From contig JASEFH010000026.1 in NCBI GenBank assembly GCA_030019205.1, positions 1 through 33,080 of the forward strand: DNA of 33,080 bases. The letters run 5' to 3'. Source of the DNA: Methanomicrobiales archaeon. GTDB lineage: Archaea; Halobacteriota; Methanomicrobia; Methanomicrobiales; JACTUA01. The position numbers and the translations under genes were made by a program. How positions within the stretch are numbered: the first letter of the stretch is position 1; each line of letters opens with the position of its first letter. Below the pieces are notes generated by a model. It saw only the letters and a program-made list of their open reading frames with translations, was not told the origin of the DNA and searched no databases. Positions 3,209 to 28,681 of this stretch are shown piece by piece.

Positions 3209-4213
3209 CTAGATCAGGAAGTAGAAGAGGATCGAGCTGACGATCGGTATGGTGCAATTGTCATCCAGTCTCAGAGGCAGCGATTCCAGGAAGGTGGCCA
3301 GCAGGATTACGACGATGGTCACGGGCGAGGGAAGGATCAGGAGCGCTGTGAGACCCCCGAGCGCGAACCCGACCGATCCTTCCAGCGACTTGTCCCTGTT
3401 CCAGGGCAGCCTCCGCCTCCCGAAACGCCTCCCGATGCTGGTGGCGAGGGCGTCGCCGAGTGAGAGGATCAGGACGACGGCCGTGGCCGCGGCAGCGCTG
3501 TGCCGCAGCAGCCCCACGGTGAAGAGCACCCCGATCCCGAAGTAGAAGGACCCCTCTCCGGGCAGCACGCCGTCACGCTCGTACCAGGCGAGAAGCTGGT
3601 CGATGATCGGAACGCGGATCCCGATCACTTTGGCGTGGATGATGAGCGTGCCGGCGAGAACGATGAGGAGCAGGGGGATGAGGAGGGGTTCGATCCCGAA
3701 GCGCCACAGCGCCGCCGCCAGCACTAGGCCCAGGGTGGCGTGCACCGCCTGCCGGGCATACTCCCGATCGCCTCCGGAGCCCCTTCCGCTGCGGCGCAGG
3801 AGCGAGGTCGCGAAGTTGTACCCGAACCCGCCTACGGCGATGCCGCCGGCGATATCGTACCATGTGTGGGCATGCAGCAGAATCCGCGACCACCCGGTCA
3901 GAACGGCAAGAGTGTAGGCGACAGGGAGGAGGGGATGTCCGATCAGCGCGAAGACGAACGAGAATGCGGTGCTTGTATGCAGACTGGGATAGGCGTAGCC
4001 GGGAGGGCAGTCCACGCCCTCGATGCTCGCACAGGGGCGAATGAGGTCGATGGCACCCTTCAGCAGGATCGATAGCACGATGGTGATCGCGAGCGTGACC
4101 ACGAGGATCCGGATCCGCTCGATGTCCTCCGGGGCCAGCCTCCAATCGCACACGTTCGCCACCCGTCCAGCAACCGTTAGCTGCCTCTCCGCATAATCCC
4201 ATCTGCTCCGCAC
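3209..4213 (-). CDS. Membrane fusion protein: PAP2-family lipid phosphatase + phytol/dolichol-kinase-like domain
   Basis: 334-aa polytopic membrane protein with two recognisable halves. Residues about 35-135 carry the PAP2 acid-phosphatase signature in order: KX6RP (K52...R59-P60), PSLH (76-79, a PSGH variant) and SRX5HX3D (S109-R110...H116...D120). These are the catalytic residues of lipid phosphate/pyrophosphate phosphatases. Residues about 160-334 look like CTP-dependent phytol/dolichol kinases (SEC59/VTE5-type): GDALATSIGRRFG (253-265), the basic RDKSLEGS (273-280) and a C-terminal ESLPLRLDDNCTIPI (310-324). One chain thus seems able to remove and to add phosphate on an isoprenoid alcohol, perhaps salvaging the lipid carrier for glycans. 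Activity of both halves is inferred. The start is GTG at 4213 without a strong ribosome site; a later start is possible. Confidence 0.8.
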   Translation of the reverse strand: MRSRWDYAERQLTVAGRVANVCDWRLAPEDIERIRILVVTLAITIVLSILLKGAIDLIRPCASIEGVDCPPGYAYPSLHTSTAFSFVFALIGHPLLPVAYTLAVLTGWSRILLHAHTWYDIAGGIAVGGFGYNFATSLLRRSGRGSGGDREYARQAVHATLGLVLAAALWRFGIEPLLIPLLLIVLAGTLIIHAKVIGIRVPIIDQLLAWYERDGVLPGEGSFYFGIGVLFTVGLLRHSAAAATAVVLILSLGDALATSIGRRFGRRRLPWNRDKSLEGSVGFALGGLTALLILPSPVTIVVILLATFLESLPLRLDDNCTIPIVSSILFYFLI

Positions 4214-4270
4214 CGCAGCAATGCCATCCTAGGAAAAGAGATATCGGCGATAACGTCGAGAAGTACGTCG

Positions 4271-5158
4271 ATGAAGAGGGCGCTCCTTGCCGAGTACACG
4301 GTGCTCCACGATCCCCAGCTCGCCCCGGAGGGGGCGGCGATGCTGCAGGTGCTGCGCGAGAGTTTCGCGAGGTGCGGCTACGAAGTGGTGTCCCCGTCGG
4401 GAAACGGGTTCGAGGCGGAGCTGGAGCGGCTGGCTCCAGCCTGCGATCTGGGGCTCGTGATCGCTCCGGACCACCTGATCCCCCGCTTCACGAAGATCGT
4501 CGAGGATCATACCCACAATATCGGGTGCGGCAGTACCGCCGCCGCCGTCTGCGCCAACAAGCGGCTGACCGGCAGGGTTCTCGCCTCGCACGGCATCGCG
4601 GTTCCGGAGGAGGTCCAGACGGGCATGCGGGTGATCAAGCCTGTGATGGGCTGCGGGGCGGAGGGGGTCCGCCTCTCGACCGATCCCCCCTCCGGGGGCG
4701 AATTCGGGCAGCGGTTCATCGAGGGTGAGCACCTCTCCGTGAGCCTTGTGGCCGGCCGCGTCGTCGGGGAGGCGTGCCTCTACTACAGCGGCGCCCCCCC
4801 GCTCCTGCTCGCCCTCAACCGCCAGGATATCCGCATCGCGGACGGGCGGTTCGAGTACCGCGGCGGCGAGACCCCGGTTCCGCATGCACGGAAGGACGAG
4901 ATCGCGGACCAGGCGGCCCGAGCGGTGACGGTGCTCGGGTGCCAGGGTTATACCGGCGTGGATGTGGTCGTCGCGGACCGCGTGTACGTTGTGGACGTCA
5001 ACCCCCGGATCACCACGAGCATCATCGGGATCGCCGCCTGCATGGAGGAGGAGATCGCACGGATCCTGGTGGACGCTTCCCACGGGATCCTGCCTGCCGA
5101 GGTGCACTGCCGCGGACGGGTGCAGTTCCAGAAGGACGGGAGCGTGAAGCGGCTGTGA
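4271..5158 (+). CDS. mfnD: Tyramine--L-glutamate ligase (ATP-grasp), methanofuran biosynthesis
   Basis: Predicted MfnD, which joins glutamate to tyramine with ATP to make gamma-glutamyltyramine, a step in building methanofuran, the first C1 carrier of methanogenesis from CO2. The 295 residues have an ATP-grasp layout: an N-terminal Rossmann-like part, HTHNIGCGSTAAAVCANK near residue 85-100, an ATP-binding VIKPVMGCGAEGVRLS segment and FIEGEHLSVSL, and the metal-binding end VVDVNPRITTSIIGI, where D and N would bind Mg2+. The stop overlaps the GTG start of mfnF (GTGA), which supports the assignment because both enzymes act in the same pathway. No Shine-Dalgarno site is evident before the ATG. 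Confidence 0.88.
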   Translation: MKRALLAEYTVLHDPQLAPEGAAMLQVLRESFARCGYEVVSPSGNGFEAELERLAPACDLGLVIAPDHLIPRFTKIVEDHTHNIGCGSTAAAVCANKRLTGRVLASHGIAVPEEVQTGMRVIKPVMGCGAEGVRLSTDPPSGGEFGQRFIEGEHLSVSLVAGRVVGEACLYYSGAPPLLLALNRQDIRIADGRFEYRGGETPVPHARKDEIADQAARAVTVLGCQGYTGVDVVVADRVYVVDVNPRITTSIIGIAACMEEEIARILVDASHGILPAEVHCRGRVQFQKDGSVKRL

Positions 5159-6093: not shown

Positions 6094-6314
6094 CCCTCCT
6101 CCTGCTCCTGGCATCGCTCCTGATCACCGCGGTGGCCTGGCTGGTCTTCGATCTGCCGTTCCTATTCCTGCTGCTGTTCATCCCGCTGATCCCCCTGCTG
6201 GGAAAGCCGCCCCGCGTCAGGCGCTGCCCGACCTGCGGATGGCAGGCGACAGGCGGTGAGCGCTTCTGCCCCCACGACGGGACTCTGCTTGTCGAAGCGG
6301 AAGACGGCCGTTGA
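6087..6314 (+). CDS. Small membrane protein with C-terminal zinc ribbon
   Basis: 75-aa predicted protein that begins with ATG overlapping the mfnF stop (ATGGTAG), so it is probably translated with mfnF. Residues 2-39 are almost entirely hydrophobic and can form one helical hairpin or two membrane segments. After the positively charged KPPRVRR comes a zinc-ribbon-like CPTCGWQATGGERFCPHDG (C47, C50, C61, H63), placed by the positive-inside rule in the cytoplasm. No catalytic domain is visible; I know no function for it. Its last 153 bases overlap the opposite-strand gene at 6162-6773, so one of the two may have an inauthentic 3' end. The hydrophobic/zinc architecture and coupling to mfnF make this the more believable of the two in the overlap. 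Confidence 0.6.
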   Translation: MVALLLLLASLLITAVAWLVFDLPFLFLLLFIPLIPLLGKPPRVRRCPTCGWQATGGERFCPHDGTLLVEAEDGR

Positions 6315-6773
6315 GAGGCGCAGCAGGGAGAGCGGCAGAGGGATGCCCAGAATCTTCGTGTACGGGATGGTGCCGAAGTCCCGCCCCGCGTAGTTCCGGA
6401 TCGTGCCCCGGTCGATGACGATCCCCATCGCCTCCATCAGGCGTGCAGCGCGGTGATAGGGCATATCACGGCAGAGCACGCAGCAGAGGTCGACGATGGG
6501 CGTACCGTAGCGGGTGTCCGGGTAGAAGGGTGAGTCCGCATAGCAGAGTTTTCCGCACCGCATGCAGCGGAACCGTTTCACCAGGACGGAGATCTCGCGG
6601 ACCTTCCCCTCGTCCCGGATCGATGCGAACCGTTTCCGCTTGTGGTCGTGCCCCCGAACGTCGCCGCCGCAGGCGTCGCAGGCATCGAGACGGTCGAACT
6701 CGATCCCGTCCATGCGGCAGAGGGCGCCGAGCACCAGGGTCTCAAGCATCGGGGGTACGGGAATCCGTCGCAT
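6162..6773 (-). CDS. Zinc-binding HTH protein resembling a transposase N-terminus, possibly truncated
   Basis: Up to 203 aa. Two CxxC pairs (C32/C35 and C70/C73) flank a basic KRKRFASIRDEG stretch and look like a zinc ribbon. Residues about 88-132, with VDLCCVLCRDMPYHRAARL then MGIVIDRGTIRNYAGRDFG, read as a helix-turn-helix. This layout resembles the N-terminal DNA-binding part of some archaeal/bacterial transposases, but no DDE catalytic domain follows. From about residue 160 the frame only mirrors the opposite small zinc-ribbon gene and has no protein-like character, so the original C-terminus is probably lost. It may be a domesticated or decayed transposase remnant. The ATG at 6773 has a TATA-like sequence at 6820-6833 upstream. 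No insertion-sequence ends were found. Confidence 0.55.
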   Translation of the reverse strand: MRRIPVPPMLETLVLGALCRMDGIEFDRLDACDACGGDVRGHDHKRKRFASIRDEGKVREISVLVKRFRCMRCGKLCYADSPFYPDTRYGTPIVDLCCVLCRDMPYHRAARLMEAMGIVIDRGTIRNYAGRDFGTIPYTKILGIPLPLSLLRLSTAVFRFDKQSPVVGAEALTACRLPSAGRAAPDAGRLSQQGDQRDEQQQE

Positions 6774-6969: not shown

Positions 6970-9039
6970 ATGGACCTTAAGTACGTACCAACCACCTGCC
7001 CCTACTGCGGGACAGGCTGCAGCTTCAACCTTGTTGTAAAAGACAACAAGGTGGCCGGTGTCGCGCCGTTCCAGCGTTCGCCGGTCAACGAAGGCAAGGT
7101 ATGCCCCAAGGGCAACTACGCGCACGAGTTCATCAACAGCAAGGACCGCCTCACTACCCCGCTCATCAAGAAAGACGGGAAGTTCGTCCCCGCGAGCTGG
7201 GACGAGGCCTACGACCTGATCGCCAGGAAGTTCAAGTCCTACAAGCCGAGCGAGCTCGCCGTCCTGGCCTCCGCCCGCGTCTCCAACGAGGACAACTACG
7301 CGATGATGAAGTTCGCCCGCGGTGTCCTGAAGACCCCGCACATCGACCACTGCGCCCGCCTCTGCCACGCCTCGACAGTCGCCGGGCTCGCAGCGACGTT
7401 CGGATCCGGTGCGATGACCAACTCGATCGGCGACATCGCCCAGAGCAAGTGCGTCTTCATCATCGGGTCGAACACCTTCGAGCAGCACCCGCTCATCGGG
7501 CGCCGGGTGATGCAGGCGAAGAAGAACGGTGCGAAGCTCATCTACGCCGACCCCCGGCTCACCCCGACGGGGAAGCAGGCGGACCTCTTCATGCAGTTCG
7601 TCTCCGGTTCGGATGTGGCGATCTTCAACGGTCTGATGCAGGAGATCATCCGCAACGGCTGGGAGGACAAGGAGTTCATCGCGAATCGCACCAAGGACTA
7701 CGAGAAGCTCAAAGAAGTCGTGATGAAGCCCGAGTACAGCCTGGAGAACGTCTCCAAGATCTCGGGCATCCCGGTCGAGGATCTCAAGAAGGCCACCGAG
7801 TGGTTCGCCAAGGCGGAGTCCGCCTGCGTCTGCTACTCGATGGGCATCACCCAGCACACCACCGGCGTGGACAATGTCAAGTCGGTCGCCAACCTCCAGA
7901 TGCTCACCGGCAACCTGGGCAAGCCCGGTACCGGCGTGAACGCTCTCCGCGGCCAGAACAATGTCCAGGGCGCCTGCGACATGGGATGCCTGCCGGTGGT
8001 CTTCTCCGGTTACCAGAAAGTGATCGATCCGGCGGCGCACAAGAAGTTCGCCGACGCCTGGGGATTCCCCGACGGCATCGCCGAGGGCAAGAACGGCTAC
8101 GAGGTCACCGTGATGATGGATGTCCTTGTCGACAAGCCCGGCGAGCTCAAGGCGATGTACATTATGGGCGAGAACCCGATGATCAGCGATCCGGACCTCC
8201 ACCACGTGGAGAAGGCGCTCAAGAACCTGGAGTTCCTGGTCGTGCAGGACATCTTCCTGACGGAGACCGCCGAGCTGGCGGACGTCGTCCTCCCGGCCGC
8301 CTGCTACGCGGAGAAGGACGGCACACAGACCAGCACCGAGCGGCGCGTGCAGCGCTGGCGGAAGGCTGTCGAACCGCCGGGAGAGGCGAAAGCCGACTGG
8401 CAGATCATCAGCGAACTGGCGGCGAAGATGGGCTACGCGGCGCAGTTCCCCTACAAGAGCGCGGAGGAGATCTTCAACGAGATGGCGAAACTGACACCCT
8501 CGTATGCAGGCATGACATACGCCCGCCTATCCAAGCCCGAGGCGCTTCACTGGCCCTGCCCGTCGGCAGACCACCCGGGAACGCCGATCCTGCACAAGGA
8601 CAAGTTCGCGCACCCCGACGGTCTCGGCGTATTCTTCCCCATCGAGTTCAAACCGCCGGCCGAGGTGCCGGATGCGCAGTATCCCTTCGTCCTCACCACC
8701 GGACGTTGCATCTGGCAGTGGCACACGGGCACGATGACCCGCCGCTCGGAGTCCCTGGAGAAGGAGGCCCCGACCGGCTGGATCGAGATTAACGTGGAGG
8801 ACGCCAGGGAGCTGGGGATCAAGGACGGCGAAGCGGTGAAGGCGATCACCCGCAGGGGCGAGGTGAAGGTTCCTGCGAAGGTGACAAAGGACATCAAGAA
8901 GGGCGTCATGTTCATGCCGTTCCACTACAAGGAGTGCGCGGCGAACGTCCTGACGAACAACGCGCTCGATCCGATCGCCAAGATCCCGGAGTTCAAGGCC
9001 TGTGCTGTTCGGGTCGAGAAGATACCGGAGGTGCAGTAA
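6970..9039 (+). CDS. fdhA: F420-dependent formate dehydrogenase, alpha (catalytic) subunit, copy 1
   Basis: Molybdenum/tungsten-bis-pterin enzyme subunit that oxidises formate to CO2 and passes electrons to FdhB for F420 reduction. The 689-aa length is normal. C10, C13, C17 (CPYCGTGC) and C45 bind the [4Fe-4S] cluster. The active site HCARLCH has Cys132 as the metal ligand where some enzymes have selenocysteine, followed by the catalytic His133. The molybdopterin-binding domain follows, with NTFEQHPLIGRRVM, MGITQHTTGVDN and GQNNVQGACDMG, and a C-terminal molydopterin-dinucleotide domain beginning around LTTGRCIWQWHTGTMTRRS. Its stop overlaps the fdhB1 start by one base (TAATG). Bases 7460-7928 are identical to fdhA2, whereas the first 130 codons are much more diverged, a sign of gene conversion. 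Confidence 0.97.
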   Translation: MDLKYVPTTCPYCGTGCSFNLVVKDNKVAGVAPFQRSPVNEGKVCPKGNYAHEFINSKDRLTTPLIKKDGKFVPASWDEAYDLIARKFKSYKPSELAVLASARVSNEDNYAMMKFARGVLKTPHIDHCARLCHASTVAGLAATFGSGAMTNSIGDIAQSKCVFIIGSNTFEQHPLIGRRVMQAKKNGAKLIYADPRLTPTGKQADLFMQFVSGSDVAIFNGLMQEIIRNGWEDKEFIANRTKDYEKLKEVVMKPEYSLENVSKISGIPVEDLKKATEWFAKAESACVCYSMGITQHTTGVDNVKSVANLQMLTGNLGKPGTGVNALRGQNNVQGACDMGCLPVVFSGYQKVIDPAAHKKFADAWGFPDGIAEGKNGYEVTVMMDVLVDKPGELKAMYIMGENPMISDPDLHHVEKALKNLEFLVVQDIFLTETAELADVVLPAACYAEKDGTQTSTERRVQRWRKAVEPPGEAKADWQIISELAAKMGYAAQFPYKSAEEIFNEMAKLTPSYAGMTYARLSKPEALHWPCPSADHPGTPILHKDKFAHPDGLGVFFPIEFKPPAEVPDAQYPFVLTTGRCIWQWHTGTMTRRSESLEKEAPTGWIEINVEDARELGIKDGEAVKAITRRGEVKVPAKVTKDIKKGVMFMPFHYKECAANVLTNNALDPIAKIPEFKACAVRVEKIPEVQ
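7460..7928 (+). repeat. 469-bp segment identical to 10840-11308 (fdhA1 copy)
   Basis: Line-by-line comparison shows no difference over 469 bases, ending at T7929/A7930 (C, G in copy 2) and beginning after A7459 (G in copy 2). The surrounding coding sequence differs visibly, including at silent sites, for example at 7201-7398 versus 10581-10778. Confidence 0.95.
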
Positions 9040-10193
9040 TGGCAAAGAAAGGAGACATGTTCTACGCATGGTCCACGGATGCGGACCTGCAGAAGAAGGG
9101 CGAGTGCGGGGGGGCGGTGTCTGCCATCCTCAAGCATGCCCTCGAGAGCAGGGCGGTGGATGCAGTCCTCGCCGTGAAGAAGGGTGCCGACATCTACACC
9201 GCCGAGCCTGCCCTGATCACCAACCCTGCGGATATCGCTCAGACGGCCGGTTCCCTGCACTGCGGCACGCTGCTCCTCTCCAAACTGGTCAAGAAGTACC
9301 TCGACGGGGCGAACGGCATGAAGCTCGCTGTCACCGTGAAGGGGTGCGACCTGATGGGACTCCTGGAGCTTGCCAAGCGCAACGCGATCAATCTGGACAA
9401 CCTCTTCCTGATCGGCGTCAACTGCGGCGGATCCGTGAGCCCCGTCACGGCCCGGAAGATGATCGCCGACAAGTACGGGGTCAACCCCGACGATGTCGTC
9501 AAGGAGGAGATCGACAAGGGTCAGTTCATCATCCAGACGAAGGATGGCCAGCACAAGGGCATCTCGATGGACGAGCTCGAGGAGCATGGCTACGGACGCC
9601 GCAGCAACTGCCGCCGCTGCAAGATGAAGGTCCCGCGGCAGGCGGACCTCGCCTGCGGCAACTGGGGCGTCATCGGCGACAAGGCCGGGAAGGCGACCTT
9701 TGTCGAGGTCTGCAGCGACCGCGGGGCCCGGATGCTCGATTCGGCAGTGCAGGCGAACAAGCTGGCGGTCGAGGCGCCCAACCCGAAGGGCATCGAGATC
9801 CGCGGCAAGACCGAGAACGCGATGTTCAAGCTCGGCGACAAGTGGCGGAAGAAGGACTTTGCCGCGCTCGGCAGAGATGTCTGGACCACGATCGCGAAGG
9901 AGACGTCGCGGTGCATCAAGTGCTACTCCTGCATCGAGAACTGTCCGGTCTGCTTCGAGGTCGCCGATGAACTGAAAAAACCGAGCCTGCTGGTCAAAGC
10001 CGGAGAACTGCCGCCGAACCCCATGTTCCACCTGCGCCGTTTCGCGCACATCTCGGACTCCTGCATCAACTGCGGGCAGTGCGAGGAGCTCTGCGCGATG
10101 GACATCCCGCTCGCCCTCTTCTCGCACGCGATCCGGGTTGAAGGCGACGCCGCGTTCGAACCGAAACTGGGTGCTCCAGCGTACAAGAACTGA
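9039..10193 (+). CDS. fdhB: F420-dependent formate dehydrogenase, beta subunit, copy 1
   Basis: FdhB transfers electrons from FdhA through iron-sulfur clusters and FAD to coenzyme F420. 384 aa. The N-terminal and central parts are of the FrhB/FdhB C-terminal type (F420-reducing, FAD-binding), with the conserved VKGCD (about 100), GVNCGGS (127-133) and cysteines C191, C194 and C206. Two ferredoxin-like cluster motifs follow: C292xxC295xxC298xxxC302-P and C342xxC345xxC348xxxC352. In the second one the usual proline after the last cysteine is replaced (CAMDIP). The tail ends about 30 residues earlier than in copy 2. ATG at 9039 overlaps the fdhA1 stop. A seven-T terminator follows the stop. Confidence 0.95.
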   Translation: MAKKGDMFYAWSTDADLQKKGECGGAVSAILKHALESRAVDAVLAVKKGADIYTAEPALITNPADIAQTAGSLHCGTLLLSKLVKKYLDGANGMKLAVTVKGCDLMGLLELAKRNAINLDNLFLIGVNCGGSVSPVTARKMIADKYGVNPDDVVKEEIDKGQFIIQTKDGQHKGISMDELEEHGYGRRSNCRRCKMKVPRQADLACGNWGVIGDKAGKATFVEVCSDRGARMLDSAVQANKLAVEAPNPKGIEIRGKTENAMFKLGDKWRKKDFAALGRDVWTTIAKETSRCIKCYSCIENCPVCFEVADELKKPSLLVKAGELPPNPMFHLRRFAHISDSCINCGQCEELCAMDIPLALFSHAIRVEGDAAFEPKLGAPAYKN

Positions 10194-10201
10194 TATCACT
10201 C

Positions 10202-10208
10202 TTTTTTT
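10202..10208 (+). terminator. T-run terminator after fdhB1
   Basis: Seven consecutive T nine bases after the fdhB1 stop, in GC-rich DNA; archaeal RNA polymerase terminates at such U-rich runs. It suggests fdhA1B1 and fdhA2B2 are separate transcripts, in line with the full promoter before fdhA2. Confidence 0.6.
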
Positions 10209-10264
10209 CGAATTCCAGGACTGCCGCTCGGACCGCTGGCGGGTTCGGCCCGATCCGCATGCAT

Positions 10265-10343
10265 TCCACCGATATTCACCAAAAATCGCGGAATTTTCAC
10301 CATCCTTATATACCCTGAAACCCAAGGTCTAAGTGTCCGAGGT
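10265..10343 (+). promoter_or_regulatory. fdhA2 promoter, upstream motif and leader
   Basis: The 10-mer TCCACCGATA (10265-10274) is shared with fdhA1 at almost the same distance from the ATG. It is followed by a clearly stronger TATA box than in fdhA1 (CTTATATAC, about 10305-10313). Transcription should start near 10337, giving a leader of about 13 bases that includes much of the shared TGTCCGAGGT (10334-10343). Confidence 0.6.
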
Positions 10344-10349
10344 TTATCC

Positions 10350-12410
10350 ATGGATATGAAAGTTGTTCCCACAACCTGCCCGTACTGCGGTACGGGGTGT
10401 GGATTCAACCTCGTGGTGCGCGACGGCAAGGCGGTCGAGGTGACCGCCTGGCAGCGCAACCCCGTCAACGAGGGGAAGCTATGCCCGAAAGGACGCTACG
10501 CCCACGAGTTCATCCACCGTGAGGACCGGCTGACAAAGCCGCTCATCAAGAAGAACGGGAAGTTCCAGGAGGCGAGCTGGGACGAGGCCTACGACCTGAT
10601 CGTGAGCAAGTTCAAGTCCTACAAGCCCGATGAGATGGCGTGCCTCTCTTCCGCCCGCGTATCGAACGAGGAGAACTACCTGATGAACAAGTTCGCCCGG
10701 GCTGTGCTGAAGACGCGGCACATCGACCACTGCGCCCGCCTCTGCCACGCCTCCACGGTCGTGGGGCTCGCCGGCGCGTTCGGATCCGGTGCGATGACCA
10801 ACTCGATCGGCGACATCGCCCAGAGCAAGTGCGTCTTCGTCATCGGGTCGAACACCTTCGAGCAGCACCCGCTCATCGGGCGCCGGGTGATGCAGGCGAA
10901 GAAGAACGGTGCGAAGCTCATCTACGCCGACCCCCGGCTCACCCCGACGGGGAAGCAGGCGGACCTCTTCATGCAGTTCGTCTCCGGTTCGGATGTGGCG
11001 ATCTTCAACGGTCTGATGCAGGAGATCATCCGCAACGGCTGGGAGGACAAGGAGTTCATCGCGAATCGCACCAAGGACTACGAGAAGCTCAAAGAAGTCG
11101 TGATGAAGCCCGAGTACAGCCTGGAGAACGTCTCCAAGATCTCGGGCATCCCGGTCGAGGATCTCAAGAAGGCCACCGAGTGGTTCGCCAAGGCGGAGTC
11201 CGCCTGCGTCTGCTACTCGATGGGCATCACCCAGCACACCACCGGCGTGGACAATGTCAAGTCGGTCGCCAACCTCCAGATGCTCACCGGCAACCTGGGC
11301 AAGCCCGGCGCCGGCGTGAACGCTCTCCGCGGCCAGAACAATGTCCAGGGGGCCTGCGACATGGGGGCGCTCCCGAACGTCTACTCCGGTTACCAGGCGG
11401 TCATCGTCCCCGAGAACCGCAAGAAGATGATGGATGCCTGGGGAGTCGAGATCGCCGAGGGCAAGGTGGGCTACACGGTCACCGAGATGATCAACGTCCT
11501 CGCCGATAAGCCCGGCGAACTGAAATGCATGTACATCATGGGCGAGAACCCGATGCTCTCCGATCCCGACCTCCACCACGTGGAGGAGGCGCTCAAGAAC
11601 CTGGAGTTCCTGGTCGTGCAGGACATCTTCCTGACGGAGACCGCCCAGCTGGCGGACGTCGTCCTCCCGGCCGCCTGCTACGCGGAGAAGGACGGCACAC
11701 AGACCAGCACCGAGCGGCGCGTGCAGCGCTGGCGGAAGGCTGTCGAACCGCCGGGAGAGGCGAAAGCCGATTGGCAGATCATCAGCGAACTGGCGGCGAA
11801 GATGGGCTACGCGGCGCAGTTCCCCTACAAGAGCGCGGAGGAGATCTTCAACGAGATCGCGAAGGTAACCCCCTCCTATGGCGGTATGTCCTATGCCCGC
11901 CTCGAGAGGCCCGAGGCGCTCCACTGGCCCTGCCCGTCGGCAGACCACCCGGGAACGCCGATCCTGCACACCCAGAAGTTCGCGCACCCCGATGGTCTCG
12001 GCGTCTTCACCCCGATCGAGTGGAAGCCCCCGGCCGAGGTGCCGGATAAGGACTACCCGTATATCCTCACCACGGGACGGACCATCTGGCAGTGGCACAC
12101 GGGCACGATGACCCGCCGCTCCCCGTCGCTCGAGAAGGAGGCCCCGACCGGCTGGATCGAGATTAACGTGGAGGACGCCAGAGAGCTGGGAATCAAGAAC
12201 GGCGAAGTGGTGAAGGCCAGCACCCGCCGCGGTTCCGTGAATGTACCGGCGAAGGTGACAAAGGACATCAAGAAAGGGGAGATGTTCATGCCGTTCCACT
12301 ACGCCGAATGTGCGGCGAACGTCCTGACGAACAACGTACTCGACCCGGTCGCCAAGATCCCGGAGTTCAAGGCCTGTGCTGTTCGGGTCGAGAAGATCCA
12401 GGGGGCCTGA
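10350..12410 (+). CDS. fdhA: F420-dependent formate dehydrogenase, alpha (catalytic) subunit, copy 2
   Basis: Second catalytic subunit of 686 aa, with the same functional residues as copy 1: the cluster cysteines C10, C13, C17 and C45, and active-site Cys132-His133 in HCARLCH. It differs from copy 1 mainly in residues 1-130, in a segment around residues 340-405 (with a net three-residue shortening after SGYQ), and in the C-terminal third; the remaining parts are nearly identical in protein and DNA. The TATA box is better than that of copy 1, so this may be the more strongly expressed copy; that is inference. fdhB2 begins three bases after the stop. No selenocysteine codon is present in either copy. 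Confidence 0.97.
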   Translation: MDMKVVPTTCPYCGTGCGFNLVVRDGKAVEVTAWQRNPVNEGKLCPKGRYAHEFIHREDRLTKPLIKKNGKFQEASWDEAYDLIVSKFKSYKPDEMACLSSARVSNEENYLMNKFARAVLKTRHIDHCARLCHASTVVGLAGAFGSGAMTNSIGDIAQSKCVFVIGSNTFEQHPLIGRRVMQAKKNGAKLIYADPRLTPTGKQADLFMQFVSGSDVAIFNGLMQEIIRNGWEDKEFIANRTKDYEKLKEVVMKPEYSLENVSKISGIPVEDLKKATEWFAKAESACVCYSMGITQHTTGVDNVKSVANLQMLTGNLGKPGAGVNALRGQNNVQGACDMGALPNVYSGYQAVIVPENRKKMMDAWGVEIAEGKVGYTVTEMINVLADKPGELKCMYIMGENPMLSDPDLHHVEEALKNLEFLVVQDIFLTETAQLADVVLPAACYAEKDGTQTSTERRVQRWRKAVEPPGEAKADWQIISELAAKMGYAAQFPYKSAEEIFNEIAKVTPSYGGMSYARLERPEALHWPCPSADHPGTPILHTQKFAHPDGLGVFTPIEWKPPAEVPDKDYPYILTTGRTIWQWHTGTMTRRSPSLEKEAPTGWIEINVEDARELGIKNGEVVKASTRRGSVNVPAKVTKDIKKGEMFMPFHYAECAANVLTNNVLDPVAKIPEFKACAVRVEKIQGA
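10840..11308 (+). repeat. 469-bp segment identical to 7460-7928 (fdhA2 copy)
   Basis: Direct repeat partner of the fdhA1 segment, at a constant offset of 3380 bases. A further near-identical block is 8212-8483 versus 11583-11854 (two differences noticed), and a shorter one lies in fdhB (9591-9689 versus 12968-13066). Confidence 0.95.
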
Positions 12411-12413
12411 GCC

Positions 12414-13655
12414 ATGGTAACGAAAGGCGACATGCTATACGCCTGGTCGACGGATGACGCCATCCGCGAGGCCGGCGAGACCGGCGGCACCATCACCGCG
12501 CTGCTCAAGTTCGCCCTCGAGAGCGGCATGGTCGATGCCGTCTATGCGGTGCGGAAGGGTATCGATCTCTACGATGCCCAGCCCGTTCTGATCACGGACC
12601 CGAAGGAGGTCATCAGCACGGCGGGCTCCCTCCACATGGGTACCCTGCTCGTACCCAAGCTGCTCCGCCGCTGTGTGACGAGCGCCGATCCGAACATGAA
12701 GATCGCCGTCGTCCTGAAGGGCTGCGACGTGATGGCCGCCTACGAGATGGCCAAGAGGAACCAGCTGAACCTGGACAACCTGATCATGATCGGCGTCAAC
12801 TGCGGTGGATCCGTCCGCCCGGCGGTCGCCCGCAAGATGATCAAGGAGAAGTTCGGCATCGACCCCGATACCGTCGTCAAGGAGGAGATCGACAAGGGCC
12901 AGTTCATCGTCGAGACGGCTGACGGCCAGCACAAGGGCATCTCGATGGACGAGCTCGAGGAGGAGGGCTACGGACGCCGCAGCAACTGCCGCCGCTGCAA
13001 GATGAAGGTCCCGCGGCAGGCGGACCTCGCCTGCGGCAACTGGGGCGTCATCGGCGACAAGGCCGGGAACGCCACCTTTGTCGAGGTGACGAGCGAGAAG
13101 GGCGCCAACCTGATGAACGCGGCGGCCCAGGGCGGCGCGATCAAGACCGAGGCGGCGCCGGCGAAGGGCATCGAGATCCGCGGCAAAGTCGAGAACGCGA
13201 TGCTCAAGCTCGGCGACAAGTGGCGCGAGAAGTACTTCAAGTCGATGGGCACGGGCAAAGACCGGCTGCAGCTGATCATGGACCAGACCTCCCGTTGCAT
13301 CCGATGCTACTCCTGCATCGAGAACTGTCCGGTCTGCTACTGCGTCGAGTGCAGCACCAAGAAGCCCTACCTGGTCCCCCCCGGCGAGATCCCCCCGAAC
13401 TTCATGTTCCACCTGATCCGTTTCGCGCACATCTCCGACTCCTGCGTGAACTGCGGGCAGTGCGAGGAGCTCTGCCCCGTGGAGATCGAGAACTCCCGCT
13501 TCATGCACGCCATCCAGACCGATCTCGAGTCGATGTTCGGCTACGTCCCCGGCGTCGACATGACGCTCCCCGTGCTCGCCCTCGTGGAGGAGCCAACGGA
13601 ACGCGAGCGGCTGACGGCCACGGGATCCGACCAGATCTTCGATATCTTCAAGTGA
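12414..13655 (+). CDS. fdhB: F420-dependent formate dehydrogenase, beta subunit, copy 2
   Basis: 413-aa FdhB with the same arrangement as copy 1: F420/FAD-binding body, C192/C195/C207, then cluster motifs C295xxC298xxC301xxxC305-P and C344xxC347xxC350xxxC354-P, here with the canonical proline. Between the clusters it has extra cysteines (VCYCVEC). The C-terminus extends about 30 residues beyond copy 1 (...GYVPGVDMTLPVLAL...), with a form usual for methanogen FdhB. ATG at 12414 comes three bases after the fdhA2 stop, with the GGGGG of the fdhA2 end as possible ribosome site. A nine-T run follows the gene. By its motifs this copy looks the more canonical of the two. Confidence 0.95.
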   Translation: MVTKGDMLYAWSTDDAIREAGETGGTITALLKFALESGMVDAVYAVRKGIDLYDAQPVLITDPKEVISTAGSLHMGTLLVPKLLRRCVTSADPNMKIAVVLKGCDVMAAYEMAKRNQLNLDNLIMIGVNCGGSVRPAVARKMIKEKFGIDPDTVVKEEIDKGQFIVETADGQHKGISMDELEEEGYGRRSNCRRCKMKVPRQADLACGNWGVIGDKAGNATFVEVTSEKGANLMNAAAQGGAIKTEAAPAKGIEIRGKVENAMLKLGDKWREKYFKSMGTGKDRLQLIMDQTSRCIRCYSCIENCPVCYCVECSTKKPYLVPPGEIPPNFMFHLIRFAHISDSCVNCGQCEELCPVEIENSRFMHAIQTDLESMFGYVPGVDMTLPVLALVEEPTERERLTATGSDQIFDIFK

Positions 13656-15846: not shown

Positions 15847-17445
15847 TTACTCCCCGAACCCCCTCACGAGACCCTCCTCTATCGGCCGCTTCTGCAGCCG
15901 CGAGAGTTCCTGCAGGTAGTCCTCGAAGAGGTGGATGCGGGTGCTCACGGGGAACGGAATCCCCAGACTGCTGATCACCGCCTCGCCGGGCTCGAGTGTC
16001 TGGATCTCGGTGTCCATGCGGGAGAGGTCCTGCTTGGCGCTGCTGGAGAGGATCTCCCGGTCACCGCGATCCCCGAGCCCCATGATGACGAACGTGTTCA
16101 CCTGGGCGAGCACCTTCGGATCGATGTTGCGGGGCTGCTGGGTGATCACGCAGAGCCCGACGCCGAATTTTCTCCCCTCCATGGCGCACTCACGGAAGAT
16201 CTGGGTGCTCCGCCCTCCCGTGCCGAGCACCCGCTGCGCCTCCTCGAGCGTGATCAGCACCTGCCTCGGGCGGGTTTTCTCGGCCACGCCCCAGTCGGAA
16301 CGGTGCCGCTGCATGATCTGGCGGGTGATGACCGAGAGGACGAAGAGCTCGCTCCGTTCGCCCATGCCGGGGATGTCGATCAGCACCACCCGGTTCTCCT
16401 CCAGCGCACGGAGAATATCCGGTATGGCCGATCCGCGGGTGCGGAGGAAGGGATTGCCCCGCACCAGGATGCTCACGTGCCGCTTGATCACGGCGAGCGT
16501 CCCCGGGTGCGAGCTGCGCAGGAGCCTGGCGATGTGAGGGAAGGGCCCATCGTAGGCGCTCGCATCGAAGGTGTCGAACTCGGTCGAGAGGAAGAACTGG
16601 ATGAGCTCCGAGCCGCGCATATCATCGAGCAGCTCCACGACGTCGCGCTGGGCATCCGAGTGATCGAAGAGCAGGTTGAGATCGGAGGCCCGGAAGTCGT
16701 CGTGCTCCAGGTAGAGGCGGGACAGGGCATACTTGCTGCGGTAGGCATCGTCGCGGATGGTGAATACGGAGAGCCCGTCCCGCCCGGCGGAGACGTGAAG
16801 AAGCCCGCGGGTGGGCTCGCCGCTCGAGGATCGGCCACCGGCCACGTACTCTCCGTGGGGATCGACGATCAGGAGCCCGAACTGCCGGACCTGCATGCAG
16901 GATGCGCAGAAGACCTTCATGAAGTTGCTCTTGCCCATGCCGGTCGTGGCGAAGACGCCCATGTGCTGCGGCATCACCTTCGCGTGCAGGGCCACCCGCA
17001 CCTCCTTCAGTACATCCTGCCCTGACTTCATCACGCCCACCTCGATCTCCCCCATCACCCGCCGCAGGAACCCGAAATCGTCCGCACTGGGCTTCTCGAC
17101 CCGGGAGAACTTGGTCGGGATCGTCTTCGCCTTGCGGAAGGTGCCGGAGTCCTGGACGTACCCCAGGGGCACCGCCTCGACCGTGAGGTAGACATCCTCG
17201 CTCAAATGGTAGAAGCGTTCGGCATAGGGTCTCGTGTCCCACTTGCGGTCCTGGAAGTTGCTCTCGTGCAGGAGGTCGGTCACCTTGGCGAAGAACGTCA
17301 GCTGCTTCACGGTGTCCGTGATCTTCAGCACCTCCCCCACGAAGATCCGCCCGTCGTAGGGGACGGTGAACCGGTACTTCAGCACGCTGTCTCCGATCAG
17401 CCGGAACTTGGTTCTGTCCTCATCGTCAATAGCGTTCAAATTCAT
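15847..17445 (-). CDS. herA: HerA-type bipolar DNA helicase/translocase
   Basis: Hexameric FtsK/HerA-superfamily ATPase that works with NurA to resect DNA ends after Mre11-Rad50. 532 aa. An N-terminal HAS-like beta-barrel (about 15-120) precedes the ATPase. Walker A is ATTGMGKSN (166-174), followed by LLIVDPHGEY (191-200), Walker B VLITLEEAQ (396-404) and a sensor-like VITQQPRNIDP. The C-terminal SSLGIPFPVSTRIHLFEDY is typical of the family. The start overlaps the 3' end of nurA by 20 bases, so translation is coupled. The overlap and gene order mre11-rad50-nurA-herA are the classic archaeal arrangement and make the assignment firm. Confidence 0.93.
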   Translation of the reverse strand: MNLNAIDDEDRTKFRLIGDSVLKYRFTVPYDGRIFVGEVLKITDTVKQLTFFAKVTDLLHESNFQDRKWDTRPYAERFYHLSEDVYLTVEAVPLGYVQDSGTFRKAKTIPTKFSRVEKPSADDFGFLRRVMGEIEVGVMKSGQDVLKEVRVALHAKVMPQHMGVFATTGMGKSNFMKVFCASCMQVRQFGLLIVDPHGEYVAGGRSSSGEPTRGLLHVSAGRDGLSVFTIRDDAYRSKYALSRLYLEHDDFRASDLNLLFDHSDAQRDVVELLDDMRGSELIQFFLSTEFDTFDASAYDGPFPHIARLLRSSHPGTLAVIKRHVSILVRGNPFLRTRGSAIPDILRALEENRVVLIDIPGMGERSELFVLSVITRQIMQRHRSDWGVAEKTRPRQVLITLEEAQRVLGTGGRSTQIFRECAMEGRKFGVGLCVITQQPRNIDPKVLAQVNTFVIMGLGDRGDREILSSSAKQDLSRMDTEIQTLEPGEAVISSLGIPFPVSTRIHLFEDYLQELSRLQKRPIEEGLVRGFGE

Positions 17446-18454
17446 CGTGAATATCCCCGAACATGGTCAGATAGTCCTCGATCCGCATCCCTGCCCCGCT
17501 CATCGCCCCGATCAGATCCTGCCGCATCTGCTCCACCAGATCCCGGTCGATCTTCACCAGACGGTGCGCCTCCATGAGCGGGACGGGGTAGCCCGCGATC
17601 CGCCCGTCGTCCGAGTAGCGGGCGAGGGCGGCAAATGTCCTCTCGATCGCCTCGGGCTGCGCGTAGCGCGGCAGCTCGACTTTGAAGGCCCTGCACGCCC
17701 TCGGATGCAGGCGGGCGACGAAAATGGCCCCCTGCTGCCACTCCTTGAACCGCGGGGCCTCGAGAAGGCTGTCGGGTATCCCGACGTACCACGGATGGTC
17801 GATGCCGCATCGATCCGCGAGCCCGGCCGCTGCCGGCACCAGGGGATACCCGTTTCCCCAGGTCACCGATGAGCGTTTGGTCACCGCTGCCAAGAGCACG
17901 CCCCTTCTCCTGCAGCGCTTGAGGAGGTCCAGGATCACGGGCTGGTGGCTCGCGTGGCTGGCGGTGAGCGCCCCGTCCAGGAGGAGCAGGTCGCCTGCGT
18001 CGAGGGTGTCGGCGAGGCGCCGCGCCACGGAGTACTCGAGCGTATCCCGCAGCACCGCCGATGCCTGGACGGGATCGTCGCTGTAGAGGGGCGTCTCCGG
18101 GATCGTCTGGAAGCACCGCCGATACAGCTTCACGAACTCCTCACATTTCCGCTCCGGCCCGATGGCCGCAAGACAGGGGGAGGTGATCCCCCGGTGGAGC
18201 CGTGTGCCCTCGCGGAACGTGCTCTCGCCCGCCCGCACGGCGGCGACGGCGTAGCTGCCGGCGTCCAGGACGATCGCATTGCTCCCGTCGACAGCCGCGA
18301 TGCTCCCCTCGAACCCGGTGCCGCAGGCGGCGTACGATGCCGGACCGAGACCGCTCTCCGCGGAGAAGAGGTCGACCAGATTCTTCGGCGAATAGGCGAT
18401 GATTCGCTCGAGGATGCGGTAGATCCCCTTCCCGTAGGCGTCCACCTCCCTCAT
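17426..18454 (-). CDS. nurA: NurA 5'-3' nuclease
   Basis: 342-aa nuclease with an RNase-H-like fold that digests DNA pulled through by HerA during double-strand-break resection. The first metal-binding aspartate is in IAAVDGSNA (D56), with further acidic residues in VLRDTLEYSVARR (about 134-146) and LLLLDGAL (D160). A conserved His-containing C-terminal region (EAHRLVKIDRD) follows. ATG at 18454 overlaps the rad50 stop (ATGA), and its own end overlaps herA by 20 bases. Sequence similarity among NurA proteins is low, so the assignment rests on the motifs plus the strictly conserved gene context. Confidence 0.88.
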   Translation of the reverse strand: MREVDAYGKGIYRILERIIAYSPKNLVDLFSAESGLGPASYAACGTGFEGSIAAVDGSNAIVLDAGSYAVAAVRAGESTFREGTRLHRGITSPCLAAIGPERKCEEFVKLYRRCFQTIPETPLYSDDPVQASAVLRDTLEYSVARRLADTLDAGDLLLLDGALTASHASHQPVILDLLKRCRRRGVLLAAVTKRSSVTWGNGYPLVPAAAGLADRCGIDHPWYVGIPDSLLEAPRFKEWQQGAIFVARLHPRACRAFKVELPRYAQPEAIERTFAALARYSDDGRIAGYPVPLMEAHRLVKIDRDLVEQMRQDLIGAMSGAGMRIEDYLTMFGDIHDEFERY

Positions 18455-21400
18455 GGCGAGATCTCCTGCACGCGGCTGGTCTGATCCTCCCCCATCTCGA
18501 CGAGGAGCGTGTTGGAGAACTCCCCCTGGACCTCGGAGACATGGGAGATGATCAGGATCTGGGGGAAGTTGGCCTCCTGGGAGCGGAGCGCCTGGATGAG
18601 GTTGCTCCTCCGCCCCTCGTCCTGGCTGCCGAAGATCTCGTCGAAGATGAGGAAGGTGCTGTCATGGACCTGGTGCACCTCGGCGAGGTAGCGGCTGAGC
18701 GCGATGCGGAGCGCGATGGCGATATCGTCCTGCTCGCCCCCGCTGAATCGGTTGACGGGGTAATCGTCCCCCATATCGTGGACGAGCAGGTTGAACTTCT
18801 CGTCGAGGATGACCGATTCGTAGCGACCGTCGGTGATCTGCGCCAGGATGCGCCCCGCTTCGCCTTCGATCCGCCCACGGACGGCCGACAGGAGGTGGGT
18901 GACGAAGTCACCGAGGCACTTCCGTGTCAGGCGGAGGCGCTCCATCTCCTCCCGGATCGCGTCGCATTCCGCGGCATACTCTGCACTCCGCTCCAGGGCG
19001 AGGGAGATCCGGGAGATCTCTCCCTCAAGGTGCCGCAGGTCCCCTTCTGTTCGGGTCCTCTCCGCGGCCAGCCACTGCGCCCGTTCGGTGCATTGGCGAA
19101 GGGAGTCCTCCGCTGCGGCGAGGCGTGCGGGATCGAATCCGAGTCTCGCCAGGGATCGCTCCGCCCAGGCGACCTCGCTCTCGACCTGCTGCCGGTACGC
19201 CTTCCTCTCCGAGAGACTCTTCTCGAGGTCGGGGATCTCGTCCATCCGCACCGCCAGCTCCGCGAAGCGGCGGTGGGAGTCCACCGCCCTCCTGTACTCC
19301 GCGAGGAGGGCTGCGTACCCGGCGGGATCGAATGCGAGGGTCTGGAGCTCTCTCTCCGCTGCCGCAAGGTTCGCCTCCGCCTCCCGGGCCGCCTCCCGGA
19401 GCTCGTCGAGTTCGGCCCTCGCGGCATCCCCGTTCTTCAGACGCTCCCGAATCTGCAGATGCTCCTGCCATGGCTGCATCAGGGCCGCGATCTCTTCCTC
19501 GACATCGCGTCTCTCCTGCGGCTGGAATCCCAGCTCGCGGATCCGGGCGGAGATGAGTTCCTCCTCGGCGATGCAGCCCTCCCCCTCGAGCCCGAGCGCA
19601 GCGAGTTCCTCCCCGAGCGGCTCCATCCGAAGGCACTCGCCCCGCAGCGTATCCGCCTCCTCCTTGCGTCTCCTGAGGACGACGATCTCGCTCTGCAGGG
19701 CATCGTGACGCCCGGGATCGTAGGACTCCAATCCCAGCTCGCGGAGGGCGTCGAGAGCCCGTGCTCTCCCCTCCTCGGCCCTCTGCCGCTGCTCCTGGAG
19801 CGACCGCCTCTCCGATTCGCAGGCAGCCGCCCGCTCCCGCAGACCCTGCAGCGCATTTCGCCTCTCCGCGAGGTGCCGCAGATCCGCGGTCGCCCGCTCC
19901 AGGTCGGCGGCGGCCTCGCGGTACTCCGCATCGAGCGCTCCGATCCGCTGCTGCGCCTCCCGGACCTCCTGGCGGAGCTCGTCCACCAGGCGGCCGAAGT
20001 GATCCCGGAGCGGGCGGTGGCATGTCGGGCAGGCGCCGTCCGCTCCCGCATGCTCGATCTCGCGGAGACGCTGCTCGAGAGCCTCCCGCTCCTCGACGGC
20101 ACCCGAATACCGGGTGGCAGCGCTGCTCCTGCGGTGAGCCGCCGCATCCCGCGCCTCCTCTGTCGCTGCGATCCGCCCGTCGATCCCGTCGAGTTCCGTG
20201 AGCCTCGCCGCGAGGCGGTGGAGTTCCTCCTCCATGCGCGAGAGGTGCCGTTCGGCCGCATCCCGCTGACTCTCCCAGAACGCCGCCTGCTCCGCCGGGA
20301 TCTTGGCCGCCGCCAGGATCGACTCCTCCTGCAGGAGTCCGTCGAGGCGAGCGATCTCACGCTCCCGGCGATCCAGCTCCGCTCCGCGTTCGCGGAGGGA
20401 TGCCAGCTCGGCGGAGATCCTCTGCATCCGCTCCTCGATTCCCCGGAGCCGCTCCCTCACCCGCCCGCACTCCCCCCGCAGGCGGGTGTACTCCGACTCT
20501 TTTGTCCTGAGCTCCTCGAGCCGCCCCCGCAGCTCTTCCAGCCGCGCCAGCGGCTCCTGCAGCTCCTGCAGACGGCACGCATCCCGTGCGCAGCGTTCGA
20601 GCAGGGCTTCGAGCGCCTGGATACGCTGCCGTGCGATCTCCAGCCGATCGCGGTGCTGCCTCCGCTCCCCCTGGAGGCGGTCGTGAAGCGCCTTCCTCTC
20701 CTCCTCGCGCTCCACTTCCCGCACCAGCTCGCGGTAGCGGTTCTCCTGCGCGGCGAGGCTGCGGTACTCGCCCTCCAGCATCCTCCGTGCGCTAATCTCC
20801 GCCTCCAGCCGTTCGCACTCGTCCGCCACACGCTGGAGTGCCTCCCTCCGTGCGATGATCCCCTGCTGGAGGGAGATATGCTCCCGCTCCTTCCCGCGCA
20901 GCGCATCGACCTTCGACTCCCGCTCCCGTATCGCTGCGGCGACCGCCGTCTGCCGTTCATCCATGCCCTTCAGCCGCTCCCGGAGGGCGGCCTCCTGCCG
21001 GCGAGCCGCTGCAAGCTCCTGCTGCAGACTCTCCGCATCCAGCTCCTTGAGCCTCCCCGAGAGTTCGGTATGGCGCTCCTTCTGCTCGTCCAGAAGAGCC
21101 TTCAGATCCTCGTCTGCAGCGTCCCGGATCGCGTCGATGCGTAGCGCCTGCATGAACCAGCGCCGACGTTCGCCGGAGCGGCTCTCCAGGAGCGAGAGGA
21201 GATCCTTCTGCCCTGCGTAGATGGTATTCCTGAAGTCGGTCGGCCCCATCCCGACGATCCGCCGGATGGCGTGCTGGACGTCGGTCACCCCCTCCGCGAT
21301 CTGGCGGCTGCCGGCAAAGAGGCGGGCCTCGTGCTGGGTGGACGACCCGCTCCTGCGGAAGTACCGGACGACCGTGTAGTCCGCCCCGCCCGCGCCGAAG

Positions 21401-21627
21401 TCGAGGCGGACGGTTGCCCGTGCCCCGTCCCCGGCGGCGGCGCTGACGATGTGGTCGGGGTCGACGCCGCTCGACTGCACGCCGTAGAGCGCAAAGAGGA
21501 TCGCCTCCACGAGGCTGCTCTTCCCCGCCCCGTTGTTGCCGACGATACCGGTGATCCCGTCGCGGAACACGACCCGCTCCTCGGCGAAGCGCTTGAAGTT
21601 CTGCAGGTGCAGGCTATGGAGCAGCAT
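18451..21627 (-). CDS. rad50: DNA double-strand-break repair ATPase Rad50
   Basis: SMC-like ATPase that tethers and processes broken DNA with Mre11. 1058 aa from the chosen start. Walker A GNNGAGKSS (30-38) opens the protein. Two long charged coiled coils (about 170-520 and 560-900) flank a zinc hook CPTC (533-536). The C-terminal lobe has the ABC signature FSGGEQD (about 961-967), Walker B FLIFDEIF (about 992-999) and an SH switch histidine in IISHVSE. The ATG at 21627 begins directly with MLLHSLHLQNFKRF; the in-frame ATG 14 codons earlier lies inside mre11 and adds only Arg/Gly-rich residues, so I rejected it. The gene overlaps mre11 by 14 bases and nurA by four. Confidence 0.96.
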   Translation of the reverse strand: MLLHSLHLQNFKRFAEERVVFRDGITGIVGNNGAGKSSLVEAILFALYGVQSSGVDPDHIVSAAAGDGARATVRLDFGAGGADYTVVRYFRRSGSSTQHEARLFAGSRQIAEGVTDVQHAIRRIVGMGPTDFRNTIYAGQKDLLSLLESRSGERRRWFMQALRIDAIRDAADEDLKALLDEQKERHTELSGRLKELDAESLQQELAAARRQEAALRERLKGMDERQTAVAAAIRERESKVDALRGKEREHISLQQGIIARREALQRVADECERLEAEISARRMLEGEYRSLAAQENRYRELVREVEREEERKALHDRLQGERRQHRDRLEIARQRIQALEALLERCARDACRLQELQEPLARLEELRGRLEELRTKESEYTRLRGECGRVRERLRGIEERMQRISAELASLRERGAELDRREREIARLDGLLQEESILAAAKIPAEQAAFWESQRDAAERHLSRMEEELHRLAARLTELDGIDGRIAATEEARDAAAHRRSSAATRYSGAVEEREALEQRLREIEHAGADGACPTCHRPLRDHFGRLVDELRQEVREAQQRIGALDAEYREAAADLERATADLRHLAERRNALQGLRERAAACESERRSLQEQRQRAEEGRARALDALRELGLESYDPGRHDALQSEIVVLRRRKEEADTLRGECLRMEPLGEELAALGLEGEGCIAEEELISARIRELGFQPQERRDVEEEIAALMQPWQEHLQIRERLKNGDAARAELDELREAAREAEANLAAAERELQTLAFDPAGYAALLAEYRRAVDSHRRFAELAVRMDEIPDLEKSLSERKAYRQQVESEVAWAERSLARLGFDPARLAAAEDSLRQCTERAQWLAAERTRTEGDLRHLEGEISRISLALERSAEYAAECDAIREEMERLRLTRKCLGDFVTHLLSAVRGRIEGEAGRILAQITDGRYESVILDEKFNLLVHDMGDDYPVNRFSGGEQDDIAIALRIALSRYLAEVHQVHDSTFLIFDEIFGSQDEGRRSNLIQALRSQEANFPQILIISHVSEVQGEFSNTLLVEMGEDQTSRVQEISP

Positions 21628-22762
21628 GCTCCTCCTCCCGCGTCCGGGCCATCGCCCGCTCCAGGACATCCCGCCCTTTCCGGAGCACGTAGTCCCTCTG
21701 AGCGGGGGGGAGCGGTCGTGTTCGGACGAACTTCTCGAACTCCTGGAGGTAATCGATCCCGACCAGATCCTGCCTCTCGAACCGGGAAGCGGACTCCTCG
21801 GGGAGAATCGCCCGCAGGCGGAGGTCCAGGACCCTCGCCCGCGCCTCCTGGAGAACCTGCGGATCGATCTCGCGGAGCGCCCCGCGCGAGATCCGGTCGA
21901 GCGTGATCTGGCACATCACGCTGCCCCCCTCCAGGCGCTTGACGCGACCCGCGATCTCGCGGCCGATCTCGACGACGGATCGCCCGTCGCAGACGATCGT
22001 CCCGAGATCCGTCATGGGGGTGTGCGGGAGGGGCAGGTGCTTCACACGGCGGGACGCGGGATCGACGAGCAGCCCCCCCTTCCGATCGCCGATCTCGCCG
22101 TAGTTGCAGTACTCCAGGGACCCGCTGTACCAGGCGTTGTCGGCGACCTGGACCTGCCCGTGGAAGTGCCCGAGGGCGATGTAGTCGAAGCGATCGGAGA
22201 GCATCGTCGAGTCGATCTCGTGCTCCGCAACGGAGTGGAGTCGCCTGTCGGAGAGGATGCTCGCCAGACCGTGCACGACGAGCACGTTGGCGGAACTGCC
22301 CGAGAGTTCGATCGCATCGAATGCGCGGCGGTAGTCCTCTGCCTGCAGCATGTTGGGGATCAGGTGGAAGCAGACGTCGTCGATCTCCACGCGGCGGTAG
22401 GCGTAACGGTAGGCGGCGTGGATGTCGGCGGCATGATACTCGAGCACCTCGAACGGGGAGGTGGTGTGCCGCGTCTTGACCATGCTGTGGTTGCCCGCGA
22501 TCGCGACCAGGGGTATGCCGCTCTCGTGGAGGCGGTTCAGCGCCTCGAGCACGACGGTGTATGCGCGGGTCTTGGGCTTCACCTGGTGGAAGAGATCCCC
22601 CGCGTGCACCACCGCGCCGGGCTTCAGCGCGATCAGTCTGTCCACGCTCGCCAGGAAGTTATCGTAGACGAGCGTCTCCCGCAGGTTCATCCCTGTATCG
22701 GGATCCAGACGGTTGAACGCGGATAAACCCAGATGGGTGTCTGCGATGTGGACAAACTGCAT
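21614..22762 (-). CDS. mre11: Mre11 nuclease, partner of Rad50
   Basis: Mn2+-dependent phosphoesterase that opens DNA ends. 382 aa. All phosphodiesterase motifs are visible: ADTHLG (D8, H10), HAGDLFH (D56), GNHS (N91, H92), VVHG (H164) and GHFHG (H199, H201). A capping domain and a Rad50-binding helical end (LQEFEKFVR...) follow. ATG at 22762 has a perfect GGAGGT ribosome-binding site (22773-22768) five bases before it. A TATA-like CAAATAG lies about 15-20 bases further upstream. It is first in the mre11-rad50-nurA-herA operon, whose four genes overlap one another. Confidence 0.96.
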   Translation of the reverse strand: MQFVHIADTHLGLSAFNRLDPDTGMNLRETLVYDNFLASVDRLIALKPGAVVHAGDLFHQVKPKTRAYTVVLEALNRLHESGIPLVAIAGNHSMVKTRHTTSPFEVLEYHAADIHAAYRYAYRRVEIDDVCFHLIPNMLQAEDYRRAFDAIELSGSSANVLVVHGLASILSDRRLHSVAEHEIDSTMLSDRFDYIALGHFHGQVQVADNAWYSGSLEYCNYGEIGDRKGGLLVDPASRRVKHLPLPHTPMTDLGTIVCDGRSVVEIGREIAGRVKRLEGGSVMCQITLDRISRGALREIDPQVLQEARARVLDLRLRAILPEESASRFERQDLVGIDYLQEFEKFVRTRPLPPAQRDYVLRKGRDVLERAMARTREEEHAAP

Positions 22763-28677: not shown

Positions 28678-28681
28678 AGCC

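Follow-up and report, generated by a model that had tools for sequence, protein, structure and literature searches.

A PAP2 core fused to a polyprenol-kinase-like domain in a Methanomicrobiales archaeon, a candidate for lipid-carrier turnover

The window, i.e. the whole stretch of DNA analyzed here, comprises the 33,080 nucleotides of contig JASEFH010000026.1 from a Methanomicrobiales archaeon. On its minus strand we observed a gene in which a PAP2 domain is followed, in the same chain, by a domain similar to CTP-dependent polyprenol kinases (Table 1). The stop codon of this gene occupies positions 3209-3211. Besides the GTG at the 5' end of the frame, translation could start just as well at in-frame GTG codons at residue 18 or 21, and relatives start near these two residues. 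The G+C content and the GC3 of the fusion gene are the same as those of the adjacent genes. Its neighbors code for SurE, ribose-5-phosphate isomerase and TBP, while the divergent genes encode ATP-grasp and hydantoinase-like proteins. No role for the fusion was suggested by any neighbor gene in the window.

Other parts of the window carry features of their own. The ORF at 870-1244 has no Pfam match and resembles a helix-turn-helix regulator; the ORF at 6162-6773, also with no Pfam match, carries CxxC pairs. Formate-dehydrogenase-like gene pairs are arranged in tandem at 6970-13655. The two large-subunit genes share an identical 469-bp block (7460-7928 and 10840-11308), and this identity suggests a recent gene conversion or duplication. 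A row of HerA-, NurA-, Rad50- and Mre11-like genes, named from reading the sequences only, spans 15847-22762. About 24 kb from the fusion, genes for UDP-GlcNAc 2-epimerase, a glycosyltransferase and a polysaccharide flippase at 28571-33071 form a possible surface-glycan locus.

Table 1. Features of the fusion gene and its upstream region (positions in the window; residues of the 334-aa product).
Feature	Residues	Position	Strand	Remarks
PAP2-polyprenol-kinase-like fusion gene		3209..4213	minus	334 aa, GTG start; full-length homologs
Divergent intergenic region, 57 bp		4214..4270	.	Common to the fusion gene and the ATP-grasp gene 4271-5158 (+)
PAP2 domain	36-139	3797..4108	minus	PF01569 E=2.6e-10; four-helix core only
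PAP2 motif C1, KGAIDLIRP	52-60	4034..4060	minus	K52-x6-R59-P60
PAP2 motif C2, PSLH	76-79	3977..3988	minus	P76-S-L-H79; PSGH in relative L059
PAP2 motif C3, SRILLHAHTWYD	109-120	3854..3889	minus	S109-R-x5-H116-x3-D120
Positively charged linker RRSGRGSGGDREYAR	141-150	3764..3793	minus	Probably cytoplasmic (inferred topology)
CTP-dependent polyprenol-kinase-like domain	150-334	3212..3766	minus	Homology, CdsA profile match, AlphaFold model
RQAVH	154-158	3740..3754	minus	Corresponds to the charged clamp R-K-x-x-H seen in prenol kinases
GDALATSIG...KSLEG	253-279	3377..3457	minus	Nucleotide-site region common to CTP-using enzymes
ESLPLRLDDNCTIP motif	310-323	3245..3286	minus	E310, D318, N319 invariant in 54/54

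The original prediction had placed two domains in one chain, a PAP2 phosphatase and a CTP-dependent kinase of the polyprenol, phytol or dolichol kind, and this layout is supported. The PF01569 match scored 40.6 bits against the curated cut-off of 27.2, and shuffling the N-terminal half 20,000 times never produced the C1-C2-C3 triad. Relative to the pattern K-x6-RP...PSGH...SR-x5-H-x3-D, the catalytic residues are all kept in the window protein, with PSLH for PSGH as the sole deviation; this glycine-to-leucine replacement had already been noted with the original prediction. The position of the C2 glycine varies naturally, with Asp in other C55-PP phosphatases, and the PgpB mutant G162D is inactive (PMC7413402).

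The position of C1 and the hydropathy profile indicate a four-helix core and not the six-helix arrangement of PgpB. The fused PAP2 lacks two N-terminal helices. It is a reduced core, since in the stand-alone PAP2 proteins of these genomes C1 is preceded by additional helices. The four helices span the whole Pfam domain and, therefore, membership in the PAP2 family stands. The full-length AlphaFold model of the fusion was poor and unreliable in the PAP2 half, and its Foldseek matches in the PDB were noise.

The domain search of the two halves, proposed with the original prediction, was successful outright only for the PAP2 half. When the window protein alone was searched against Pfam, NCBIfam and, by phmmer, the PDB, this was the only half named: residues 150-334 had no Pfam or NCBIfam match, including no match to a curated kinase model, and PF01940 (DUF92) did not match the window protein. 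For the C-terminal half, a 20-sequence profile of its family matched Thermotoga maritima CdsA in the PDB (4q2e, E=4.8e-5), a CTP-using CDP-lipid synthase. The CTP_transf_1 model produced weak matches in 4 of 20 members, with the best E-value of 0.005. We also found the kinase half to share about 33% identity with stand-alone proteins, each of about 185-220 aa, present in 138 of the 199 genomes of the order.

Nine residues (E151, R154, H158, R213, D254, G261, E310, D318, and N319) are invariant in all 54 homologs, while T258, K275 and G279 each vary in one of the 54. The clamp position 155 is either K or Q among the homologs, with RQxxH in the window protein. The spacing of R154-Q155-x-x-H158 is the same as in the clamp of the Plasmodium prenol kinase PfPolK, Arg29-Lys30-His33 (PMC10849223). 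An AlphaFold model of the kinase half had eight helices (pLDDT 85, pTM 0.82); a Foldseek search of the PDB with this model returned nothing below E=0.9 and thus no significant structural match. The putative kinase assignment is drawn from the motifs, the superfamily and the fusion partners, and not from a match to a characterized kinase.

The survey of archaea, also proposed earlier, found the fusion in the window genome and in nine full-length relatives. Within the window's own family (11 genomes) it was present in this genome only, and in the phylum sample it recurred only in family f21, presumably Methanotrichaceae, where a search of 50 genomes yielded the nine full-length fusions at 35-48% identity. 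The ten fusion kinase domains form one group in the tree (support 86/94); given this grouping, the simplest history would be that the fusion arose once and was then transferred. Neither the viral contigs searched with the fusion profile nor the plasmid search produced anything. Broken fusion copies were observed in two f21 genomes, G481 and G525 (L055 577-1437 and L116 8076-9224).

The two halves differ in their conservation across the family. All ten full-length fusions keep their kinase motifs intact. The PAP2 motifs, however, survive only in the window protein and in its closest relative, L059, where all three are canonical (KLVVNISRP, PSGH, and SRVYEGFHSWFD); in the remaining eight, C1, C2 and C3 are gone in whole or in part. 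D120 is the only PAP2 residue invariant across the fusions, and among seven scanned fusion relatives PF01569 still matches only L059. The tree places L059 between L054 and the seven remaining fusions that lost the motifs (85/86); if this branching is right, the PAP2 motifs would have been lost at least two times. Still, the decayed PAP2 halves had dN/dS of 0.19-0.25, compared to 0.08-0.15 for the kinase half (five pairs; in the fifth, the kinase half was saturated). The decayed halves are therefore under purifying selection and are not drifting freely.

Such a pattern could mean that the protein is a polyprenol kinase only, with the PAP2 half as an N-terminal domain for structure, lipid binding or regulation and the residual motifs seen here being ancestral. 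The low dN/dS of halves that lost their motifs in eight of ten fusions indicates that a non-catalytic role is kept in those proteins. In addition, eukaryotic dolichol kinases have variable, non-homologous N-terminal domains that support the kinase activity (PMC11542857), and PSLH stands in place of PSGH. On the other hand, despite the decay elsewhere, the window protein keeps every catalytic residue but the C2 glycine and L059 keeps the full set; moreover, another PF01569 or BacA phosphatase was undetectable in the window genome. We regard the kinase-only explanation as possible but somewhat doubtful.

The window genome is 99.6% complete, and the fusion is its sole PF01569 protein as well as its sole member of this kinase family; BacA/UppP was not detected in it. 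A BacA/UppP gene was observed in one relative of the window's family (G008:C52:35370-36095), while checks of 14 other genomes detected none.

In five f21 genomes (G487, G520, G521, G500, and G525), an intact PAP2 gene with PSGH lies head-to-head with a fusion whose PAP2 half is decayed, the fusion in G525 being a broken copy. The predicted start-to-start distances in the first four are 27-221 bp. Three of these loci are syntenic and two have other surroundings, with three different gene settings in all. Since the neighbors differ among the loci, the PAP2-fusion pair stayed together while the surroundings changed. Linkage of the two gene types recurs in the window's order, where a PAP2 gene adjoins the stand-alone kinase divergently in G068 and convergently in G108, G188 and G198 (one genus). 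Many other genomes have both genes but not side by side; in one genus, about 20 kb lies between them. A strict rule tying a decayed PAP2 half, in both directions, to the presence of a neighboring PAP2 partner failed, as G467, G522, G506 and G284 have decayed halves with no adjacent partner. In G506 and G284, neither PAP2 nor BacA was detectable.

With respect to glycosylation, AglB/STT3 homologs are present in the window genome. In G522 and G506, the fusion is head-to-head with a sugar nucleotidyltransferase gene, with AglB nearby, and this AglB linkage was seen in these two related genomes only; in G500, a polysaccharide flippase gene is located about 3.5 kb from the intact fusion.

Given that the N-terminal segment and the linker are both positively charged and that the PAP2 core has four helices, the two segments should lie in the cytoplasm. 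C1-C3 would then face outward, as they do in PgpB (PMC7413402), and the kinase clamp inward. Two sites on opposite faces would act in sequence and not as a local futile switch. Such a topology, along with the loss of PAP2 catalytic residues in eight of the ten fusions, goes against the general switch between opposed activities envisaged in the original prediction. The proposed link to polyprenol recycling fared better and is retained in our reading. The product would be an integral membrane protein that combines a PAP2 phosphatase core and a CTP-dependent polyprenol kinase of the same kind as VTE5 and the dolichol kinases. The outward PAP2 site would hydrolyze polyprenyl pyro- or monophosphates, the cytoplasmic kinase site would re-phosphorylate the polyprenol (or archaeal dolichol) with CTP, and this CTP step would restore the lipid carrier used for surface glycans.

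We hold with moderate confidence that the fusion serves lipid-carrier turnover as an outward polyprenyl-(pyro)phosphate phosphatase and an inward CTP-dependent polyprenol kinase. Such a function is favored by the PAP2 match with the full C1-C2-C3 set, the homology and invariant residues of the kinase half, the CdsA profile match and the PfPolK-like clamp, as well as by the status of the fusion as the only PF01569 and kinase-family protein of its genome, the recurrent PAP2 adjacency, the DUF92 fusions considered next and the AglB context. Points against it are the PSLH form of C2, the two helices missing from the fused PAP2, the dead PAP2 halves in most of the family, G284 and G506 with neither PAP2 nor BacA, the limited AglB linkage and the null Foldseek result for the kinase model.

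Acidobacteria also have proteins whose N-terminal part is homologous to the kinase half. The two scanned members, L031 and L032, have as their C-terminal part DUF92 (PF01940), the family that includes the phytyl-phosphate kinase VTE6; L033-L036 are of similar length. In these VTE5-like kinase-DUF92 fusions (L031-L036) both steps from prenol to prenyl diphosphate would sit in one protein. None of the archaeal DUF92 proteins examined for a kinase domain carries one. DUF92 genes were found in 29 of the 31 genomes checked, with two in the window genome, away from the fusion. The same two activities could, then, serve salvage of geranylgeraniol or another archaeol precursor, with DUF92/VTE6-like proteins making the diphosphate, and not recycling of a glycan carrier. 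VTE5-type kinases do use C15-C20 alcohols (PMC9782597, PMC10849223), and a geranylgeraniol kinase activity is known in Sulfolobus, as cited in PMC9385802. However, DUF92 occurs with or without the fusion, and the coupling to PAP2 together with the AglB, nucleotidyltransferase and flippase neighbors better fits a long-chain glycan carrier. The salvage role thus appears unlikely.

The C-terminal half might also be a CTP:lipid-phosphate cytidylyltransferase of the CdsA/CarS kind and not a kinase. CdsA was the sole good PDB match of the profile, and CarS (5guf) did appear in the Foldseek list of the kinase model, though far down and with no significance. Yet the clamp and the E/DDN motifs follow the kinase branch, and the DUF92 fusions fit an alcohol kinase. 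CDP-lipid synthases (CdsA/CarS) carry the signature H-G-G-x-x-D-R-x-D, whereas HGG is absent from all 334 residues of the window protein. We consider a cytidylyltransferase quite improbable.

A sequencing, assembly or frameshift artifact joining two genes is refuted by the nine full-length homologs with the same domain order and boundary, and the single open frame and the grouped kinase domains count against it as well.

Returning to the carrier-turnover reading, we tentatively extend it to the related methanogens. The window protein may be an archaeal transmembrane carrier-recycling enzyme, outward PAP2 and inward kinase, while its relatives may pair a pseudo-phosphatase half with a separate, head-to-head, active PAP2, the pair supplying or recycling archaeal dolichyl phosphate.

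A 2016 survey stated that the late steps by which archaea make and recycle dolichyl phosphate were uncharacterized and that dolichol kinase homologs were missing from most archaea (PMC5088576). PAP2 proteins and polyprenol kinases are already known, and so is, in Bacillus, the logic of a phosphatase working along with a kinase (PMC5723303). What is new is the combination of PAP2 and kinase domains, the series of decay seen in it and the repeated linkage of PAP2 and kinase genes in methanogens; our literature search, which reached few subscription journals, found no prior description of a PAP2-kinase fusion. The fusion and the PAP2 adjacency, together with a widespread archaeal kinase-like family that has no name in Pfam or NCBIfam, provide concrete phosphatase and kinase candidates in methanogens. 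The natural series from an intact to a dead phosphatase on a constant kinase makes the role of the N-terminal domain directly testable. If our reading is true, the fusion enzymes may recycle the lipid carriers that archaea use for surface sugars.

Compared with known systems, the C-terminal domain shares with the VTE5, FOLK, PolK and SEC59/DOLK kinases the eight-helix membrane domain, the R-K/Q-x-x-H clamp, the match to the CTP-enzyme superfamily and the stand-alone size, a likeness drawn from motifs and not from direct alignment; it differs by its N-terminal PAP2 core. With the PAP2 undecaprenyl-pyrophosphate phosphatases PgpB, YbjG and BcrC the fusion has in common the C1-C2-C3 motifs and the Pfam family; while these proteins have six helices, the fusion has a four-helix core with PSLH, is joined to a kinase and is decayed in most relatives. 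The Acidobacterial VTE5-like-DUF92 proteins are likewise two-enzyme fusions with a homologous kinase domain, but the partner is a C-terminal DUF92 and not PAP2. Bacterial PAP2-DgkA or PAP2-DAGK fusions probably exist as well. In Bacillus, BcrC/UppP and the undecaprenol kinase DgkA follow the same logic, a phosphatase and a kinase feeding one polyprenyl-phosphate pool (PMC5723303), although there the genes are separate and the kinase family is unrelated to that of the fusion.
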